A stretch of 33,550 bases of DNA, from positions 1 through 33,550 of the forward strand of contig JAFLKR010000133.1 of NCBI GenBank assembly GCA_019163135.1. Reading direction: 5' to 3'. The notes beneath the pieces were generated by a model that was given only the letters and a program-made list of their open reading frames with translations, ran no database searches and was not told where the DNA came from. This DNA comes from Desulfobulbaceae bacterium (GTDB lineage Bacteria > Desulfobacterota > Desulfobulbia > Desulfobulbales > Desulfobulbaceae). The translations under genes and the position numbers were made by a program. Each line of letters opens with the position of its first letter. The stretch's first letter is position 1. Positions 5,229-26,873 of this stretch are shown here, piece after piece.

Positions 5229-6023
5229 TTAGGCAAACACCTTGAAGCGGCGAGCCGACTTGGTCCCAAAAATCTGGGGCGATTGCGGCAAGCGGGTGGA
5301 GGGCAGATAGGCCCGAATTTTATTGAACCAGGCCTCGTACGTGGCCGGTGGCTTGGCATCGCGCAGGGCCTTGAGCGCATAGAAGGTAAAGGCGCCGTTG
5401 GGCCGGCCGTTAAAGCTGGTGTCCCAGCTGTACTCCGTGTCCTGGCAGCCGGCCAGAAGCAAATCGCCACCGGCGCGGGTGAAACCAGCGCGTGGCGCCA
5501 CCGTACGCAGTTGGGCCGGAGGCAGCTGATCCTTGGGCATCCAGGCCTCAGGCGGCATGAAGCGAATCTTAGGCATTCCGGGATCGAGCTCCTCATCCAG
5601 GCCACGCGTCACCGAGCCGGAATGACAACTGTCGGAGATCAGGACGATGCGCACTCCGGCGACACGGCGCGAAAACAGGGCGTGGATATCGTCATCGAGC
5701 AGCGCTCCCTTGGTCGACAGGTCGTAGGGGCAAAGAGCCTCGTCGCGACCGTCGGGCTCATCGCCGTTGCGATCCGGAACCCAGGTGCCGTGACCGGAGT
5801 AGGTAAGGATTAAGGTGTCGCCTTTCACCGCTCCTTGGATAATGCCGCCGATCGCTGCAACCATGGCAGCACGAGTCGCCATCGCATCGAGCAAGATACT
5901 GACGGTAAAACCACGTCCTTTCAACTCACTTGCCCAGTCGTTGGCGTCGTTGACGCAACCCGACAGATCATTGCCCGTACCCGGATAATCATTAATACCG
6001 ATGCAAAGTGCCTTGGTGGTCAT
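5229..6023 (-). CDS. Metacaspase-like cysteine protease (peptidase C14 family), putative defence effector
   Basis: This is a 264-residue stand-alone caspase-fold protease. The catalytic dyad is intact: His78 in LTYSGHGTW and Cys133 in LISDSCHSGS. Other metacaspase landmarks are GINDYPG at 9-15, GCVNDANDW at 22-30, the DGRDEALCPYD / LLDDDIH block at 91-113 expected to shape the acidic S1 pocket, and GRPNGAFTFYALKAL near 206-220. There is no signal peptide, membrane helix or extra sensor domain. The start at 6023 is chosen for AGGAGG five bases upstream. The upstream gene encodes a TIR-NB-ARC-TPR protein on the same strand, suggesting a sensor/effector pair in which the protease kills or arrests infected cells. 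A terminator and its own likely promoter lie between them. Substrate and activator are unknown. Confidence 0.85.
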   Translation of the reverse strand: MTTKALCIGINDYPGTGNDLSGCVNDANDWASELKGRGFTVSILLDAMATRAAMVAAIGGIIQGAVKGDTLILTYSGHGTWVPDRNGDEPDGRDEALCPYDLSTKGALLDDDIHALFSRRVAGVRIVLISDSCHSGSVTRGLDEELDPGMPKIRFMPPEAWMPKDQLPPAQLRTVAPRAGFTRAGGDLLLAGCQDTEYSWDTSFNGRPNGAFTFYALKALRDAKPPATYEAWFNKIRAYLPSTRLPQSPQIFGTKSARRFKVFA

Positions 6024-6127
6024 GGTGTCCTCCTTGGTTTCAGGGAAAAACAATTGGCTGGTTGCGTGCCGTCAAGCCGCGCCCTTGCCGGACAATCCGT
6101 TTTAAAACAGTCGCATCTGAATAAATT

Positions 6128-6154
6128 CTTATAGATGAAAGGGAGATACGTCAA
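6128..6154 (-). promoter_or_regulatory. Candidate sigma-70 promoter of the caspase gene
   Basis: On the minus strand TTGACG (6154-6149) and TATAAG (6133-6128) are separated by 15 bases, about 105 bases upstream of the caspase start and downstream of the terminator of the TIR gene. The spacing is shorter than the ideal 17, so this is a tentative call. Confidence 0.35.
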
Positions 6155-6269
6155 GGGTATTTCATCAACCCTTAAAACCTGTTTGCAACTTGCGAGCAGT
6201 AACAAGCGCGTTCCGGTGAGCGTTGCCCTCAACTCGGCACCTTTATTTCACAAGACACCACCATGCCCC

Positions 6270-6310
6270 AAAAAAGCCGCCCCTTCCTCAATTGTCTGAA
6301 GAAGAGGCGG
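6270..6310 (-). terminator. Rho-independent terminator after the TIR-STAND gene
   Basis: On the minus strand a 13-bp stem with two G-U pairs (CCGCCTCTTCTTC with GAGGAAGGGGCGG), an 8-base loop and a following run of six T (6275-6270) form a canonical terminator, about 90 bases beyond the stop codon of the TIR gene. It separates that transcript from the caspase gene. Confidence 0.75.
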
Positions 6311-6399
6311 ATAGGGTACGGTGAGGATGATGCCTGTAACTAAAAGGGAGAGTCCCGCTTGATGGGGAGCTGTGCGTCACCTGGGGCAGTGGTTATCGG

Positions 6400-8823
6400 C
6401 TACGGCTTGATCAAAGATTCACCATGGTATCTGTTTACAGGCAACGGTACGGTTTCCGGTTGTGGCGACTGGCACGCCGGATTGGCGATTATCTCCAGCA
6501 CCCCTTCCCGTATCAGTCGCTGCTGCGCCCCCAAACCGGTTGGATCACGCTTTGCCAACCAGATCAGGTTATCGCGGAGCACGGCTTGCGCCTGGACGAA
6601 CTCGCTCAATTGATCAAGGGTCCGAAATAAATTCCAAGCACTGATACTGGTGTCGGCATGCTGCTCGCCCTGGACACGACAACGGGCCTCCAGTACCTGC
6701 TCCTCAAGGATGCGGGCACCGGCAAAATCGCCTTGATTCCAGAGTGTCCCGGCCAGATTCCCCATGCTGGTGAGGGTGTTCGGGTGATCTACCCCTAATG
6801 CCCGACGGCTGGTTTCCAGCACTTGCTCCTGCAACGCGCAGGCACGAGTAAAATCCCCCTGATCTCTAAACGTTTCTGACAGATTGTTCATGCTGATCAG
6901 GGTGGCGGAATGGTCTCCACCTAGTATTAAGCGACGAGACTCCACCACTTTTTCTTGCAAAATTCGGGCCCCGGAAAAATCGCCTTGATGCCTGAGCGTT
7001 TCGGCCAAATTATTCATGCTATTGAGCGTGGCCGAGTGGGTTTCGCCCAACAATTCTTTACAGCCCTGATACTCGATATCCCACCAGAACTGAGCAGCCT
7101 GATACCGACCGGGTGCCCATTCATGCCACCCCAGCCAACCAGCCAAATTGAGACTGTCGCAGTTGTCAGCCTCTCCAGCCAGCATCTGCACATGAGGTAG
7201 GTAGAGCGTCAGCGTACGGTGCTGGCGTATATCGTCGGCACCCTCCATCCGTTCAGCCAGCACGGTCATGGCGGCGGCACGTAAGTGGCTTTGTCGCTCT
7301 TGATTGATATCATGATACCGCAGCGTATGACAAACCAAAGAATGAACTCGATAGGCGGTCATATCTGAGGTTTCTTCGGCCAGAGATTGACACAGGATTT
7401 GTTGCAACCCGAGAACGGCACGATTCTCCCCCTCCTGTGGCCCGAGGCCGTCGCCAAAGGCCAGGGTGGCTGTCAACAACTCCACCGGAATGGGGGCCGC
7501 AGCCAATTGCGTCGCCAGACGCAGAGCATCCCGCCCTCGTCCATCCAGTTGCTGAATGCTGGTCAACAATGTGGCGGCGATATACGGGTTATACCCGTGG
7601 TGGGGCAGGTCTTCCTCGAATTGAGCCGCCAGACCTAAGGCCTCCACGCAGGGCCAGTCCAGACTTTGACAAAAATGGTTATAACCGTGACGACGACAAA
7701 CAGTGCGGGCCACGTCCAGAGCCAACGCATGGCCATCCAGGTAATCGAGAATCTTATCAATCGCCTCAGCTTCGTCCAAACCGGGTGGATGTTCGAAGGT
7801 AAGCAGGCTCCGGGCTTCATCCCACGCCAATTCAGCTAGATCTATGCACTTGCCTATGCAGTCTATCCTTTGAGAACGGGTTGTAATTAAGGTCTGTCCA
7901 CGGCCTGAGGGCGCCATCCATCCTTCCAATTCACTCCCCTCACAGGCCGCCAGATCATCAACAATCCAGAGATAGGGCTCGGTCAGCAGGCGACCGATAT
8001 CGGCACGTAGGTCCTGATCACTCTTGTCGCGAACCCTTAAGCCCATTTGCCGTGCAAAACCAGCCAATTGACTCGAATAGGCGTGCCGGCGGCGAATGCT
8101 CAGCGCTTCTGCCGATTCGGCCAAGTCTTCGCGACTTCCCAACCCGTTAAACCAGAAAATACCACCGGGCCACCTGGAGCCAAAGCGCAGCGCATACTCT
8201 TCAACCAGAATCGATTTACCGACACCGCTGCCGCCGCGTACCTGAACCATTCCACTGCTAAAGCGCAGAGAAGACAAGTTGGTGGAGAGGGAGGTATGGA
8301 TGTCCCAGAGGTCGGAAGCCCGACCGACAAAACGATTAGAGCCGCAACCGTGATAGTTGCCGTACCAACGCGGTTTAACCTGGGGACGCAGGTCTCCGAA
8401 GGTCCCCTCGATAGGACGAATGGCTTCGCCAATACGTCGGGCCAGTTCGATGTAATCCCCTTCAAAACAGAGGTAGAGCAGGTCACCCAACTGGTGCGGC
8501 TGATAGGGGGCAAGACTGGCCTCCGGATTTATGACCAGCAATCGTTTGACCGGTGCCGTCTTCGCTTCAACGGCGATTAAACCTGCAGTGAGTTCCCATT
8601 GGCAGACCCGGGACTGAGAATAATCCATGGAAAACCAAGCTAACAAAGCCTTGGATTTGGACAACCCCCGGTCGATGCTCGCCTGGATTGCTTCCGCGCC
8701 CTCGACTTCGTAATGGTCAATCCAGATGCTGAGACCTTCCGCACGGAGAGCCGCGACCAGGGCATCGACACCAACACAATCAGTATGGTGATAACTGATA
8801 TAAAGATCATAGCTCTGATTCAT
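6400..8823 (-). CDS. TIR-NB-ARC-TPR protein (bacterial NLR-like STAND ATPase), putative anti-phage sensor
   Basis: An 807-residue protein with three parts. A TIR domain (about 3-135) begins YDLYISYHH; the Glu expected to be the NADase catalytic residue is E77 in VCQWEL. An NB-ARC STAND ATPase follows (about 165-500) with Walker A GGSGVGKS at 197-204, Walker B LWIVDD near 285-290, TLITTRS near 311-317 and an MHD-like VHSLV near 490. The C-terminus has four 42-residue kinesin-light-chain-type TPR units (DNA 6544-7047), the likely ligand sensor. This is the layout of prokaryotic NLR-like immune proteins, where target binding oligomerises the STAND module and activates the TIR enzyme. The start at 8823 is chosen because GAGG lies eight bases upstream; the frame stays open to 8985 without an ATG. 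A terminator follows the gene and a caspase gene lies beyond it. Confidence 0.88.
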   Translation of the reverse strand: MNQSYDLYISYHHTDCVGVDALVAALRAEGLSIWIDHYEVEGAEAIQASIDRGLSKSKALLAWFSMDYSQSRVCQWELTAGLIAVEAKTAPVKRLLVINPEASLAPYQPHQLGDLLYLCFEGDYIELARRIGEAIRPIEGTFGDLRPQVKPRWYGNYHGCGSNRFVGRASDLWDIHTSLSTNLSSLRFSSGMVQVRGGSGVGKSILVEEYALRFGSRWPGGIFWFNGLGSREDLAESAEALSIRRRHAYSSQLAGFARQMGLRVRDKSDQDLRADIGRLLTEPYLWIVDDLAACEGSELEGWMAPSGRGQTLITTRSQRIDCIGKCIDLAELAWDEARSLLTFEHPPGLDEAEAIDKILDYLDGHALALDVARTVCRRHGYNHFCQSLDWPCVEALGLAAQFEEDLPHHGYNPYIAATLLTSIQQLDGRGRDALRLATQLAAAPIPVELLTATLAFGDGLGPQEGENRAVLGLQQILCQSLAEETSDMTAYRVHSLVCHTLRYHDINQERQSHLRAAAMTVLAERMEGADDIRQHRTLTLYLPHVQMLAGEADNCDSLNLAGWLGWHEWAPGRYQAAQFWWDIEYQGCKELLGETHSATLNSMNNLAETLRHQGDFSGARILQEKVVESRRLILGGDHSATLISMNNLSETFRDQGDFTRACALQEQVLETSRRALGVDHPNTLTSMGNLAGTLWNQGDFAGARILEEQVLEARCRVQGEQHADTSISAWNLFRTLDQLSEFVQAQAVLRDNLIWLAKRDPTGLGAQQRLIREGVLEIIANPACQSPQPETVPLPVNRYHGESLIKP
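6544..7047 (-). repeat. Four tandem 126-bp (42-residue) TPR-coding repeats
   Basis: Units begin with G-E/G/V-x-H and carry NNLAETLRHQGDF-like cores. The first three are strongly alike (MNNLAETLRHQGDF, MNNLSETFRDQGDF, MGNLAGTLWNQGDF) and the fourth is degenerate (WNLFRTLDQLSEF). They form the sensor end of the TIR-STAND protein. Tandem identity at this scale favours unit gain and loss by recombination. Confidence 0.85.
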
Positions 8824-9690
8824 AAGCATTTCCTCAATCCGGATAGTTTGGATGTACATCCCCCCGAAACTTTGGCTCTGGTCCAGCAAACGGCCTTGGC
8901 GTTCGACCGCCCTGCCCTCCCATAATGTCCAATAATTATGGGAAGCGAAAACGTCATTGTGCAGTTCATCGCCTTGCAGGTCATGCTATTCTCCTTGATT
9001 TCCGGAAGATAAGGCAGGCAAACGGATGGCGATAACGAATCGTCTTTGCAGCACATTTATTTCTCATGTTCTGTTGTGATTTAATGGGGTTCTATCCAAA
9101 GCCCAGTAGTTACGTTGCGAACAACCCACTTGATTACGCAACGCTCCAAACAAATTTATGGTCGGTAATAAGGCTGGCAAGCAAGCGGGTTGAAAACTCG
9201 CTGGCATCAACAGTCACACTGCAGAGGCTCTTCGTCGGAAGGTACGAAGCCTGCTTCAATTTTTTCATACCGACGGCAGGCGCACTTCCCGTAATATTTT
9301 CATAATCATCGCGCCCTGGTCCTTGCCATGACTGAAACTTTTCAATTACCGTGCCAAAAATAATTTTCTGAAAAACTTCAGTATATCAAAATGTTAGCTA
9401 TAAGGTCCCGAACAAATCATTCTCAACTTGAAACATCCAGTCTCACATTAAGACCTAGAACGTATATTTAGCCGATGTAACCGTTCAAGTTAGTTCATCA
9501 GTAACCGTAACCCGTAACGAATCGTCCTTTTGCACCGGCAATCCTCTCCCCATAAAATAAGGAACGACGGTATATATTTATCTTTCGGCTAGTTAACAGA
9601 TATTTTCGGCAAAGTAGGTGTAGATACTGCCCTGTTCTTCAACAGCCCCCCAGGTTGGAATCTTTCAGCTATAATAGTTCTGTCCCCTTT
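8824..9690. other. AT-rich, mostly gene-free stretch upstream of the TIR-STAND gene
   Basis: No intact gene was recognised here. A 54-codon minus-strand frame (8984-8820) has a fine AAGGAG site and overlaps the TIR start as ATGA, but its residues do not look protein-like. The frame continuous with TIR upstream to 8985 looks more like coding sequence. A 12-base direct repeat TAACGAATCGTC occurs at 9033-9044 and 9515-9526, each followed within two bases by TTTGCA or TTTTGCA. From about 9320 to 9620 base composition is clearly more AT-rich than the core genes, consistent with acquired DNA. Confidence 0.5.
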
Positions 9691-22527: not shown

Positions 22528-24609
22528 TTACTCTTTTTCTACATGCATCTTCGAAATGTCGCCCACATGGAGCACAAGTTCGCCCAGGGCGGTCAACAGG
22601 TTAAGCCGGTTCTGACGGATAGTCTCGTCATCTGCCATGACCATGACTTCATCGAAGAAACGATCAACCGGTCCTTTCATCTCCAGCATCTCAAGCAGAG
22701 CCCCTTGGTATTCACGATCCCAGATCAACGGCAAGGCTTTCTCTCGGACCCTAGCCAATGCTGAAAACAATTGCTGTTCAGCGGTCTCAGTCAGCAGATC
22801 GGGATTGACTTCGGTTTCCTTATTGTCCTTAATGATATTTCTGATCCGTTTAAACGAACCGGCCAACACCCGAAAACTCTCCTGCCCGCGAATCTGATCA
22901 AGGGCATCAATTCGTGCGAGGCAGTCAACCGGGTTATCAAAACCAACCGTGGTAGCAGCCTCTATCAACTCCTGAGGCAAGCCTGTGGCAATCTGCTCAT
23001 TTTCAAATCGGAGTCGGATGAAGGTCAGCACCTCGGCGATAACCTCCGGCCCATGCTCAACCACGCTGGCGTATCCATCGAGGGCCGCCGTGGCTGTCTC
23101 ACTCAAGGAGAGCGAGATGTTCAAGCCGCGAATGATGTTGAGCAGGCCGATAGCCTGACGCCTGAGGCCAAAAGAATCCTTGTTGCCGGTGGGCTTTTCG
23201 CCGATGGCGAAGCAACCGACCAAGGTATCCATCCGGTCGGCAATGCCGACCAGCGCCCCCAGCAGGGACTGCGGCAATTCACCGCCGGCTCGCAGCGGCA
23301 GATAATGTTCCTCGATGGCCTGGGCAACGTCTGGTTTTTCCCCGTCATGCAGGGCATATACCCGCCCCATGATCCCCTGCAGCGAGGGGAACTCCCCAAC
23401 CATGGCGGTCAGTAAATCGGCCTTGGCCAGTTGTGCTGCGCGGACCACATCCTCTTTCAGTTCGGGAGCGATCCTGGTTGCCAGGAGTGCGGCCAGCGTC
23501 GTAATCCGCTCGCTTTTAGCCTGCATGGTCCCCAATTTATGTTGAAAGACAATCCCGTTGAGATTATCGCACAGAGCGGCAAGCGGGTTTTTACGATCTT
23601 CATTGAAGAAGAACAAGCCATCCTCGAGCCGCGCCCGCAGGACTCGTTCATGACCGCTGGCGGCCAGCGTCTGGTCGTTAATCCTCGTGTTATTGACCGC
23701 CACGAAGAGCGGCAACAGGTTGCCGTCAGGCCCGGCGACCGGAAAATACTTTTGATGCTCACGCATCGAGGTCACCAGGGTTTCTTTGGGCAATTGCAAA
23801 AATTTCGGATCAAAGCGGCCACAAATACCATATGGATATTCCACCAGATTGGTCACCGTGTCGATCAACCCTTCATGGAGCACCGGTTGCGCACCGAAGT
23901 CACCGGCTCCTTCATGTACAGCCCGTTTGACCTCTTCAATCACCCGGACCCTTCGTTGCGCGGTATCAACCAGGACAAAACGCTCGGTCAATCCGTCCAA
24001 ATACGAATCGATCCCACTGACTTCAAACTCAGCGGGCGCCATAAACCGGTGCCCACGGGTAGTTTTTCCGGAGTCAGTCCCTTCGAGGTGCAAGGGAACC
24101 ACGGCACCGTCATACAAGGCCAGCAACCATTGAATAGGTCGAGCAAAAACCATGCTGTAATCAGCCCAACGCATGGATTTAGGGAATACCAACTCTCGGA
24201 TAAGGGCCTCCAGCAAATCAGGGAGCAGCAACGCAGTCTCCAGCCCTTTGACGTCTTCAACCGACATCAGATACTCTCCTTTGGCCGTCGCTACGACTTG
24301 CAACTGTTCAGGTTGCAAACCACGGGAACGAGCAAAGCCCAAGGCAGCCTTGGTGAATTTACCGGTGGTATCAATACCGGCACTTTTCGAAGGACCAAAA
24401 TATTCCTGACGGCGATCCGCCTGACGGGATTGCAAATTACCAATGGCCAGCGTCAGACGCCGTGGGGTCCCATAGGTACGGATCGGATCAAATACCAGTT
24501 CCAAGGCTGACAATTTTTTGGCCGCACCTTCCGCCAGGGCTTCTAAGGCCGGTTGGATATACCCGGCTGGAATTTCTTCTGTTCCAATTTCAAAAAGGAG
24601 TTCACTCAT
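22528..24609 (-). CDS. glyS: Glycyl-tRNA synthetase beta subunit
   Basis: A 693-residue beta subunit of the alpha2beta2 bacterial glycyl-tRNA synthetase, full length for the family. It begins SELLFEIGTEEIPAGYIQPA, the usual N-terminus, and contains YGTPRRLTLAI, LDTVTNLVEYPYGICG-like and FPSLQGIMGRVYALHDGE segments and a C-terminal anticodon-binding helical domain. It charges tRNA-Gly together with the alpha subunit GlyQ. In most genomes glyQ lies immediately upstream; here the upstream neighbour is a folE2-like gene, 31 bases away, and no glyQ is in the window. Confidence 0.95.
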   Translation of the reverse strand: MSELLFEIGTEEIPAGYIQPALEALAEGAAKKLSALELVFDPIRTYGTPRRLTLAIGNLQSRQADRRQEYFGPSKSAGIDTTGKFTKAALGFARSRGLQPEQLQVVATAKGEYLMSVEDVKGLETALLLPDLLEALIRELVFPKSMRWADYSMVFARPIQWLLALYDGAVVPLHLEGTDSGKTTRGHRFMAPAEFEVSGIDSYLDGLTERFVLVDTAQRRVRVIEEVKRAVHEGAGDFGAQPVLHEGLIDTVTNLVEYPYGICGRFDPKFLQLPKETLVTSMREHQKYFPVAGPDGNLLPLFVAVNNTRINDQTLAASGHERVLRARLEDGLFFFNEDRKNPLAALCDNLNGIVFQHKLGTMQAKSERITTLAALLATRIAPELKEDVVRAAQLAKADLLTAMVGEFPSLQGIMGRVYALHDGEKPDVAQAIEEHYLPLRAGGELPQSLLGALVGIADRMDTLVGCFAIGEKPTGNKDSFGLRRQAIGLLNIIRGLNISLSLSETATAALDGYASVVEHGPEVIAEVLTFIRLRFENEQIATGLPQELIEAATTVGFDNPVDCLARIDALDQIRGQESFRVLAGSFKRIRNIIKDNKETEVNPDLLTETAEQQLFSALARVREKALPLIWDREYQGALLEMLEMKGPVDRFFDEVMVMADDETIRQNRLNLLTALGELVLHVGDISKMHVEKE

Positions 24610-24640: not shown

Positions 24641-25432
24641 TTATGAAGTGGAAGACACCCACTGTTCCGTTGCCCCGCCCTTGGATTGGCTACCACGCAG
24701 GCTTTCCTTGAAGATGCCGTCCGGTTCGGGCCATTCTGTAGAGGCAAATGTTGAATACCCGCTGGCTATATTTTTCACAACAACTTTATACCAGTCAAAG
24801 GCGCCTTGGGCCAAGAGAACGGAGCTGATCCGTCGACACATGGATTCCACCGTATCCGGATGTGCCGGCTGCGGGATAGCACCCTCTTCAACCAGGGCGA
24901 TCAAGTCTTCAATCCAGAGGAAGCGGTTCATCCGTACGGCCACGGTGATCATCCCCCATAATCCTGAAAAAACAGCAACCTGACTTTGGGTGACCGGAAG
25001 ACAGGGCAACGGCACCGGGACGTCGACCTCGACGACCAGATCAAGTTGGCGGGCCAGGGAACCGTGCAGTCGACAATCATATCGCGCCATCATACCGGCA
25101 GGATGAACGGTCTGTCTAGCTTTGAGGAAATAGGGGAACTCGATAGCCAGATGCGCTGTTTCCGCCTCCAATTTCTCCTTCATCTCCTCAAGGATCAAAT
25201 GAAAGGTTTTGAGGTTGAACTGACCATGGAAGCGATTGAGAATTTCGACAAACCGGCTCATGTGCGTCCCCTTGAACCGGTGCGGCAGGCTGACATACAT
25301 GTTGACCATTGCAACCGTTTGCTGGGTTTTACACTCCTTGTCCAAAACAATGATCGGATAGGTAATGGTTTTAACGCCGACTTTACGGATGCTGATCCTG
25401 CGGGAGTCGTACAGGCTCTGGATATCTTTCAT
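24641..25432 (-). CDS. FolE2/MptA-type GTP cyclohydrolase homologue with degenerate active-site motif
   Basis: A 263-residue protein whose first half is a good match to GTP cyclohydrolase IB: MKDIQSLYDSRRISIRKVG, ITYPIIVLD, VNMYVSLPHRFKGTHMSRF. The later FLWIEDLIALVEEGA segment also fits. The C-terminal active site does not. The usual CPCSK ... GAHNQR block, which supplies zinc Cys and His ligands, is replaced by LPCLPVTQSQVAVFSGLWG, so the GAHNQR His is absent and only one Cys could correspond. It may have lost cyclohydrolase activity, changed substrate, or use a different ligand set. The start at 25432 matches the family N-terminus, though no Shine-Dalgarno sequence is visible. It lies between a response regulator gene and glyS. 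Confidence 0.7.
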   Translation of the reverse strand: MKDIQSLYDSRRISIRKVGVKTITYPIIVLDKECKTQQTVAMVNMYVSLPHRFKGTHMSRFVEILNRFHGQFNLKTFHLILEEMKEKLEAETAHLAIEFPYFLKARQTVHPAGMMARYDCRLHGSLARQLDLVVEVDVPVPLPCLPVTQSQVAVFSGLWGMITVAVRMNRFLWIEDLIALVEEGAIPQPAHPDTVESMCRRISSVLLAQGAFDWYKVVVKNIASGYSTFASTEWPEPDGIFKESLRGSQSKGGATEQWVSSTS

Positions 25433-25509: not shown

Positions 25510-25866
25510 TCAGGCGAGATATTTACGAACCGTGCCCTTAAGTTCATCCATATTGGCAGATTTGACCACATAGGCCTCGGAAGCCCAAGTACCAAAATCC
25601 TGTTTGTATTCCTGATATGCTGAACTGAGAATAACAGGCAACTCGGGATGCAGTTCCTTCATCTGACGAAGGACCTCGATGCCGTTCATACCGGGCATGT
25701 TGATATCGAGAATGACCAAATCAGGAGGATTTTTTTTGAATTTCTCCAGAGCCTCATCCCCGTTATAGGCAGAATCAATGGCAAAGCCTTCGTCTTCAAA
25801 CTCTCCGCGATAGAGCAACTGGATGCTTTCTTCGTCATCGACCAGCAGTATACGTTTTTTTTCCAC
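25510..25866 (-). CDS. Single-domain response regulator (CheY-like receiver)
   Basis: A 118-residue receiver domain with no output domain. The acidic pair is D10-D11 in LLVDDEE, the phosphoacceptor is D54 in LVILDINMPGMNG, the switch Ser/Thr region is VILSSAY at 78-84 and the conserved Lys is K102 in VVKSAN. It would be phosphorylated by an unlinked histidine kinase and act by protein contact. It lies eight bases downstream of galT and 77 bases upstream of the folE2-like gene. Confidence 0.9.
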   Translation of the reverse strand: MEKKRILLVDDEESIQLLYRGEFEDEGFAIDSAYNGDEALEKFKKNPPDLVILDINMPGMNGIEVLRQMKELHPELPVILSSAYQEYKQDFGTWASEAYVVKSANMDELKGTVRKYLA

Positions 25867-25874
25867 GACTCCTC

Positions 25875-26873
25875 CTACAAGGTTACCTCACGGAGATACC
25901 TGCAGGTTTCCTCCGGTGGCATAGGATTGATGTAGAACCCGGTACCCCATTCAAATCCGGCAATGGAGGTCAATTTAGGAACAATTTCAAAATGCCAGTG
26001 ATAGTGTTCCAGCGAGCCAGAACGCAAAGGCTGGGTATGGAGCACAAAATTGTACGGTATATTGGGGATACACGTATCCAGACGACGCAGGGTCTCGGAG
26101 AAAATTTCAGCAAGCGCCATTAGTGAGTCTTCATCCTGATCGATATACGAGGAATTGTGGTACCGCGGCATGATCCACATCTCAAACGGAGAGCGGGGTG
26201 CAAAAGGGGCGAGGGTGACAAAAAGGCTGTTTTCACAAACCAAGCGGACCTTCTGCTGGATTTCCTGACGAATAATGTCGCAAAAGACACAGCGGTCTTT
26301 GTATTTGAAATAGGACAGACTGCCCTCTAGTTCCGAGGTGATCATCCTGGGCAGAATAGGCAGGGCAACTAACTGCGAATGGGAATGTTCGAGCGAAGCG
26401 CCAGCAGCTTTACCGAAATTCTTAAAAACCACGACATAATTAAATCGGTTATCCTTGGACAAATCACGGATTCGGTCTCGAAAGGCTCGAAACGTCAAGA
26501 GCATGTCATGGGGGGGCAGGTGGGAGAAGCGGTCCTGATGATTAGGACTTTCTATAATGACTTCGTGGGCGCCGATACCGTTCATCCGGTCATAGAGGCC
26601 CTCGCCCTGTTTATCGAGATTACCTTCGATAATCAGGGCCGGATATTTGTTAGGCACGACCCGCAACTGCCAACCGGGGGTGTTGGGGTACCCCCATTCC
26701 CTTCCATAAACTAACACTTCATCCGGGGTGGTCTTTTCATTGCCAGGACAAAGGGGGCAAAAGCCACCTTTCACCTTGAACTCTTCAATCAGAAAATCGG
26801 TGGGACGCTTCCCCCGTTCCTGGGCAATGATGATCCAGCGGCCGAGAATCGGATCTCTACGTAATTCAGGCAT
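25875..26873 (-). CDS. galT: Galactose-1-phosphate uridylyltransferase family (GalT)
   Basis: A 332-residue nucleotidyl-transferase of the HIT superfamily, which exchanges UMP between UDP-glucose and galactose 1-phosphate. The N-terminal CPLCPGNE near 38-45 supplies zinc ligands, and LRRDPILGRWIIIA and RVVPNKYPAL are standard. The catalytic region GASLEHSHSQLVALP near 157-171 has His-x-His-x-Gln; a second HYHWHFEIVPK lies near 295. The second cysteine pair CVFC near 196 is also zinc-like. No other Leloir gene is nearby, so a role in nucleotide-sugar or glycogen metabolism (relatives use ADP-sugars) is possible. It begins five bases after the DksA-like gene. Confidence 0.85.
   Translation of the reverse strand: MPELRRDPILGRWIIIAQERGKRPTDFLIEEFKVKGGFCPLCPGNEKTTPDEVLVYGREWGYPNTPGWQLRVVPNKYPALIIEGNLDKQGEGLYDRMNGIGAHEVIIESPNHQDRFSHLPPHDMLLTFRAFRDRIRDLSKDNRFNYVVVFKNFGKAAGASLEHSHSQLVALPILPRMITSELEGSLSYFKYKDRCVFCDIIRQEIQQKVRLVCENSLFVTLAPFAPRSPFEMWIMPRYHNSSYIDQDEDSLMALAEIFSETLRRLDTCIPNIPYNFVLHTQPLRSGSLEHYHWHFEIVPKLTSIAGFEWGTGFYINPMPPEETCRYLREVTL

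Follow-up and report, generated by a model that had tools for sequence, protein, structure and literature searches.

Among the described systems, the closest to the gene studied here is the first enzyme of folate synthesis, the GTP cyclohydrolase IB or FolE2 (Pfam PF02649 and NCBIfam NF010200, with solved chains in the PDB entries 2r5r, 3d2o, 5k95 and 8g6c), which has descent, fold and a first-module motif in common with it. Ordinary FolE2 carries both halves of the enzyme in one chain. The residues that we take to be the metal-binding and catalytic ones are found in CPC...GAHNQR, in the Glu of KRPDEK and in SIHxHSAY; presumably, the metal ligands are Cys147, His159 and Glu201 in the count of 3d2o (numbering counted along our alignment, with the first Cys of CPC at 147 and the His of GAHNQR at 159), and Cys149 and Glu216 are essential. 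The archaeal-type GTP cyclohydrolase MptA is related by sequence to FolE2 and has the [KR]GxxMSR motif in common with it and with the gene described here; unlike the latter, it keeps both halves. A literature search, with most subscription journals outside its coverage, returned no FolE2 pseudoenzyme, no Desulfobulbales FolE2 paralogue and no split FolE2.

The window (the whole stretch of DNA that was analysed, 33,550 nucleotides long) contains a FolE2-derived gene, hereafter D, which lacks the second-module catalytic and metal residues of ordinary FolE2 and whose start codon is fixed by the conservation of M-K-D-I-Q across the D group. The features of this locus, in which the gene names (as well as dksA, moaC, dnaJ and purA below) are presumed from the sequence, are the following:

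22528..24609, minus strand: glyS (glycine-tRNA ligase beta), 31 bases downstream of D (from sequence)
24641..25432, minus strand: gene D, FolE2-derived, 263 aa, encoding a candidate subunit (ATG at 25432, stop at 24641-24643)
24644..25120, minus strand: second T-fold module of D, residues 105-263, with the catalytic residues lost (alignment of 83 distinct D)
24743..24766, minus strand: ASGYSTFA, residues 223-230, where ordinary FolE2 has ESIHxHSAYA; a two-residue deletion (alignment)
24845..24850, minus strand: V195-E196, the kept second-module pair (alignment)
24953..25009, minus strand: LPCLPVTQSQVAVFSGLWG, residues 142-160, which replaces CPCSK...GAHNQR and contains the D-specific G-x-W-G (alignment to the solved FolE2 chains)
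25121..25432, minus strand: first T-fold module of D, residues 1-104, the conserved half (alignment of 83 distinct D)
25250..25273, minus strand: KGTHMSRF motif, residues 54-61, where the first helix begins (from sequence)
25400..25432, minus strand: N-terminal MKDIQ...DxR segment, residues 1-11, kept in D (alignment)
25510..25866, minus strand: stand-alone receiver-domain response regulator, upstream of D (from sequence)
25875..26873, minus strand: galT-like gene, upstream of D (from sequence)

Elsewhere in the window, inspection by eye points to a possible defence pair (5229-8889), made up of a caspase-like protein on the minus strand (5229-6053) and a TIR/NTPase/tetratricopeptide-like protein (6400-8889), and to a tyrosine recombinase resembling an integron-type integrase (290-1159).

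The first half of D aligns cleanly to the solved FolE2 chains, with the KGTHMSRF motif in place (running, in the structural model of D, into the first helix, residues 57-68), as the initial annotation of this DNA had claimed in calling the N-terminal half canonical. That annotation had also noticed the replacement of the CPCSK...GAHNQR region, which is borne out by both sequence and alignment, and the loss goes further than it had stated, since D also lacks the KRPDEK loop and the SIHxHSAYA strand. The profile alignment against FolE2 and MptA that it had proposed gave a PF02649 match of 139.4 bits (curated cut-off 25), covering profile positions 1-195 of 260 only, and scores under the cut-off for both the FolE2 equivalog NF010200 (116.7 bits against 215, with two other D proteins at 113 and 117.2) and the MptA model TIGR00294 (36.5 bits against 220). 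Additionally, AlphaFold2 models D (mean pLDDT 84.1) as a tandem T-fold resembling that of FolE2, in agreement with the earlier assignment to the T-fold proteins; the best structure match of the model is 2r5r (Z 21.6 over 215 residues, rmsd 3.6, 33% identity), the solved FolE2 chains lie between Z 20.8 and 21.6, and urate oxidases come next (up to Z 14.8 over ~209 residues, at ~7% identity). It is near certain that D is a conserved FolE2 derivative which is not self-sufficient, and, as judged from its sequence, stand-alone FolE2 activity of D is very unlikely, because the metal-binding and catalytic residues are absent. We file D in the FolE2 family by descent and not as a FolE2 enzyme, given that the defining catalytic features were tested and found to be missing. 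The kept fold and the V195-E196 pair might suggest that D itself has retained, or gained, GTP cyclohydrolase activity with other ligands, but the ordinary residue is present in at most 5% of the D rows at the two Cys, in 0% at the His and in 29-31% at the Glu of KRPDE, and we consider such an activity highly improbable.

D is widespread in its order, which is one of sulfur-cycling bacteria, with a match in the D range of the profile in 224 of the 242 sampled genomes. We compared 74 D-type loci (L033-L106) from the species-genome collection, whose records are titled Desulfobulbus, Desulfocapsa, Desulfobulbaceae and relatives and include many metagenome bins; two of the loci, L038 and L094, come from the cultured species Desulfobulbus elongatus DSM 2908 and Desulfoprunum benzoelyticum DSM 28570. 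KGTHMSR, an N-terminal D[IV]Q and G-x-WG are present in all 74, and CPC, AHNQR, PDEK and SIHxH are each found in 0/74. The G-x-W-G is present in 77/77 D sequences of one alignment, and a later sequence from outside the 74 (L157) reads A-L-WG. Because the same pattern occurs in all 74 loci, the motif loss in D is not due to chance or to sequencing error; a frameshift or a sequencing error as the source of the unusual motif was considered separately and dropped, since the other reading frames there give no CPCSK or GAHNQR and the orthologues share the new motif. The loss of the known catalytic residues would also be expected of a pseudogene that is decaying inside an operon of essential genes and is carried along with them. 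This explanation, to which we give almost no credence, is rejected by the low whole-gene dN/dS of D (0.02-0.11 in 13 of 15 pairs, the other two giving no whole-gene value) and by the conservation of the first-module positions, with 12/12 of those tested kept in 83 distinct sequences. In the seven pairs for which both parts could be computed, the dN/dS of residues 1-102 is below that of the remainder (7/7).

The surroundings of D are conserved as well, and the placement of D in a core-gene operon, made in the initial annotation, agrees with the conserved gene block seen in the 74 loci. The response regulator lies directly upstream of D in 74/74 loci, and galT is found upstream in 71/74, the remaining three contigs beginning too close to the gene. 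Downstream, glyS is present in 70/74; in three of the other four the contigs end too close, and in L061 there is none within 6 kb. A dksA-like gene, moaC, dnaJ and purA mostly stand further upstream, and moaC had no match in L097-L100. Links of D to two of these neighbours were considered: the one to the response regulator is weakened by a genus (g9, described below) which keeps the regulator without D, and the one to glyS was dropped, since in that genus glyS stands at another place, without D.

The initial annotation had further proposed to check the genome for another folE or folE2, and it is this check which exposed the complementary loss discussed below. Besides D, the genome of the window has one other FolE2, hereafter X (L001, C2:9279-10010), which scores 216.7 against NF010200, barely above the cut-off of 215. 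X has a full-length match in 211 of the 242 genomes of the order. Its second module is complete, with the whole catalytic set, and at the position of KGTHMSRF it has unrelated sequence (RLESCVNVM, for example). The pattern [KR]Gx[HN]MSR is found in 0/30 distinct X sequences (three of them chosen for their low scores), and is also absent in the contig-cut L240; in D, it is found in 83/83 distinct sequences. A DxQ upstream of the first VG is likewise present in 0/33 of the checkable X frames (35 in total, L202 and L238 being the other two), several of which are short, with a stop just upstream. Type IA FolE was found in 0/90 genomes (the window's own and relatives), in a search whose control matched 11 of 14 known genomes.

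Ordinary FolE2 provides the reference for these losses. The first-module motif is present in 28/28 distinct ordinary FolE2 sequences and in 5/5 outgroups (Caballeronia, Cupriavidus, Priestia, Paracoccus and Sulfitobacter, that is beta- and alphaproteobacteria and a bacillus), and its MptA equivalents read RGIHMSR in three MptA-like proteins and KGADMSR in the haloarchaeal MptA of Natrinema. In a sample of the phylum outside the order, matches were obtained in 317 of 379 genomes, only one per genome in 314 of these and never above 295 bits; the 16 genomes of the same sample that fall inside the order all have two matches, 15 scoring 320-396 and one (G018) 262. The best 15 loci outside the order (L158-L172) have CPCSK, KRxDEK and IHxH in 15/15 and GAHNQR in 14/15 (GAHSQR in the other), and the loci outside the order that were fetched with the X profile (L214-L227) have [KR]Gx[HN]MSR in 14/14. 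A single-contig genome from outside the order has its FolE2 in two frames (L241/L253, G413:C1:2417049-2417922), with the break near the module boundary, one open reading frame holding the first module with KGTHMSRF and the other the second module with CPC and GAHNQR; this may be a frameshift, an error or a real split gene.

In order to compare the losses in D and X position by position, we used the positions that are at least 97% invariant in the 28 ordinary and 5 outgroup FolE2 sequences (n=36), together with 83 D and 30 X sequences, from which rows at least 98% identical had been removed and in which X was left untrimmed. In the first module, D keeps 12/12 of these positions and X 4/12; in the second, D keeps 2/24 and X 24/24 (Fisher p of 7e-8 for D and 2e-5 for X, with positions treated as independent). 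Over the 36 positions, 6 are kept by both proteins, 8 by D only, 22 by X only and 0 by neither. The two second-module positions kept by D are V195 and E196, the latter being Glu in 99% of the 83 D rows. The loss of two N-terminal positions in X partly reflects its shorter start, and omitting them leaves 10/10 for D and 4/10 for X in the first module. With the sets thinned at 80% identity, 36 of 37 positions are kept in at least one of the two proteins, the remaining one (L206) being under 90% in both; in the unthinned version, for which the X rows were trimmed near the first strand, 2 of 44 positions are below in both. The mean pairwise identities of the first and second modules follow the same division, at 0.748 and 0.410 for D, 0.436 and 0.683 for X (0.488 and 0.694 with trimmed X rows), and 0.675 and 0.684 for ordinary FolE2. 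The first module is more conserved than the second in 3398 of 3403 D pairs and in 0 of 435 X pairs (pairs which share a tree and are not independent).

Based on these results, we consider it probable, from the sequences and by analogy with related enzymes, that D and X are obligate complementary subunits of a hetero-oligomeric GTP cyclohydrolase IB in which the active sites are shared. The initial annotation had presented D as non-catalytic or re-purposed. The first part of this stands, in so far as the metal-binding and catalytic residues are absent, but it is not the whole story, since the paralogue X lacks the complementary half. Because X lacks that half, and because D keeps its motif in 83/83 distinct sequences, it appears more likely that D still contributes to GTP cyclohydrolase activity, as half of an enzyme with two subunits, than that it is a dead or re-purposed protein.

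One could argue instead that D has taken on an unrelated activity or binding role, with X being independently self-sufficient thanks to a changed first module. The new G-x-W-G of D would be in line with this, as would the fact that D lies away from X (the two are close together in 1/74 loci, with flanks of up to 6 kb) and the existence of six fairly complete genomes with D and without X. The position-by-position complementarity with X, the lack of both D and X in the genus that has an intact FolE2, and the conservation within D, which is highest in the part common to ordinary FolE2 and not in a new one, speak against it, and we find this explanation distinctly unlikely. The sole D locus with X nearby is L073, where X (L073:8931-9656) lies beyond glyS on the opposite strand.

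The co-occurrence of the two genes was read from the tables of profile matches, with X called at E <= 1e-90 and D at E <= 1e-60, and the identity of D and X was confirmed on the sequence only for the named loci. These thresholds separate the groups within the order (where the intact FolE2 of genus g9 matches the X profile at 1e-78 to 1e-81 and the D profile at 1e-52 to 1e-55) but do not hold everywhere, since outside it E-values down to 4e-88 (D profile) and 1e-112 (X profile) are seen for ordinary copies. Among the 242 genomes of the order, 198 have both genes, 26 have D only, 13 have X only and 5 have neither; all 13 single-contig genomes carry both. In six of the X-only genomes (G051, G003, G088, G092, G543 and G547) the D locus is interrupted, either where the contig ends or at an assembly junction, and in the remaining seven the galT of the D block is absent from the assembly. 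When 11 of the 26 D-only genomes were searched again, fragments of X appeared in five (G585, G085, G612, G039 and G515) and none were found in the other six (G063, G067, G071, G079, G490 and G511), which are at least 90% complete, so that D may exist without X. We do not claim strict co-occurrence, because of these six fairly complete genomes, which are the main weakness of the argument from co-occurrence. Three of the six carry an MptA-like gene. The MptA-like GTP cyclohydrolases seen in the order (L192 in G071, L193 in G067 and L194 in G511) have RGIHMSR, CPCTQ, THSQR, KRPDE and SIHIH, and L193, with a score of 143, stays below the cut-off of 220 for MptA; in several genomes the X profile finds a third match, which may likewise be MptA-like.

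The five genomes with neither gene are all those sampled from a single genus of the family, g9 (loci L113-L116 and L259-L263), and represent only one joint loss. Four of them have an intact FolE2 and the fifth, which is 69% complete, has no match; the galT-regulator block is present without D in four genomes. In the tree with outgroups, the g9 FolE2 joins the beta-proteobacterial copies (93/80) and the ordinary copy of the phylum L168 stays in the native group, and in a tree rooted on X and without outgroups the g9 FolE2 pairs with L168 (99/97). Since its placement differs with and without outgroups, a foreign origin of the intact g9 FolE2 is moderately supported only.

As for the origin of the two proteins, D forms one clade (100/100) on a long stem, and, in three trees with outgroups, D, X and the ordinary FolE2 of the phylum group together (100/100, 98/97 and 94/94). 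D and X as a single clade is not the best tree, and it is not rejected (p-AU 0.369). A single duplication at the base of the order would fit these trees, without proof. The acquisition of X from outside, which would have freed the native enzyme to decay, was also considered and dropped, as the trees place X with the native FolE2 of the phylum.

Put together, the following course of events can be proposed. In the ancestor of the order, the native FolE2 of the phylum would have been duplicated, probably once; one copy, X, would have kept the metal-binding and catalytic second T-fold module while its first module decayed, and the other, D, would have kept the first module, with DxQ and KGTHMSRF, while its second module decayed. 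The D and X chains would then bind each other, giving a hetero-oligomeric barrel of tandem T-folds whose working sites would each be formed between chains by the second module of X and the first module of D. This complex would make dihydroneopterin triphosphate for folate, with an activity that would need both proteins. The roles suggested here for the first-module residues rest on conservation and on analogy.

The retention of V195-E196 in the otherwise decayed module of D is not explained by complementary subunits with shared sites. Another explanation is that D is a regulatory pseudoenzyme, with X active alone as a homo-oligomer and D binding X, or another partner, to tune its activity or to sense GTP or a pterin. 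In such a protein, without catalytic residues, the pair would be kept at the position of a conserved second-module Glu, which in T-fold enzymes presumably holds the purine or pterin ring; moreover, the second module of X is complete, and the activation of an enzyme by an inactive paralogue reportedly occurs elsewhere. What a regulatory D leaves unexplained is the loss, in X, of a motif that is universal in the full-length ordinary FolE2 and MptA examined, as well as the retention of that motif in all 83 distinct D sequences, and we regard this explanation as unlikely, although it is the alternative to be taken most seriously.

Returning to complementary subunits, we lean towards a general picture in which a homo-oligomeric housekeeping enzyme became, across the order and by mutual decay, an obligate hetero-oligomer of X (FolE2-alpha) and D (FolE2-beta), neither of them working alone and each composite site receiving one module from either chain, a change which would have been undone once, in g9, by the acquisition of an intact FolE2 of other origin. 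If true, this would be a natural case of subfunctionalisation within an active site: once a homomeric enzyme with composite sites has been duplicated, either copy may lose the half that its partner supplies, and both would then be locked in. It would also reveal which FolE2 residues act across the subunit boundary. For annotation, the consequence would be that D and X both match the FolE2 family and that neither may work alone, with D being read as a broken enzyme.

Whether D and X could rebuild a site can be judged by comparison with urate oxidase and bimodular QueF, which, like D, have two T-fold modules per chain and carry out other chemistry. The active site of urate oxidase is formed by the second module of one chain and the first module of its neighbour. 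We take its Thr57 and Asp58 to occupy the place equivalent to KGTHMSRF and, together with Lys10, to complete the second-module site of the neighbour. If FolE2 is built in this way, the second module of X and the first module of D would make up a full site, and the sites at the second module of D would be dead. In bimodular QueF, by contrast, a single chain forms the active site between its own two modules (PMC5372742). The two site plans, between chains and within a chain, disagree, and if FolE2 is built like QueF a simple pairing of D and X would not rebuild the site. The complementarity of the losses favours the shared-site plan, because a site within one chain would be incomplete in both D and X. 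Among other systems, inactive paralogues are reportedly retained because an active partner needs them, as is said of the trypanosomatid AdoMet decarboxylase "prozyme" and of deoxyhypusine synthase. In those pairs, one partner is reportedly degenerate, whereas here both are, and in complementary halves, X keeping the full second module without KGTHMSRF and D the opposite half.
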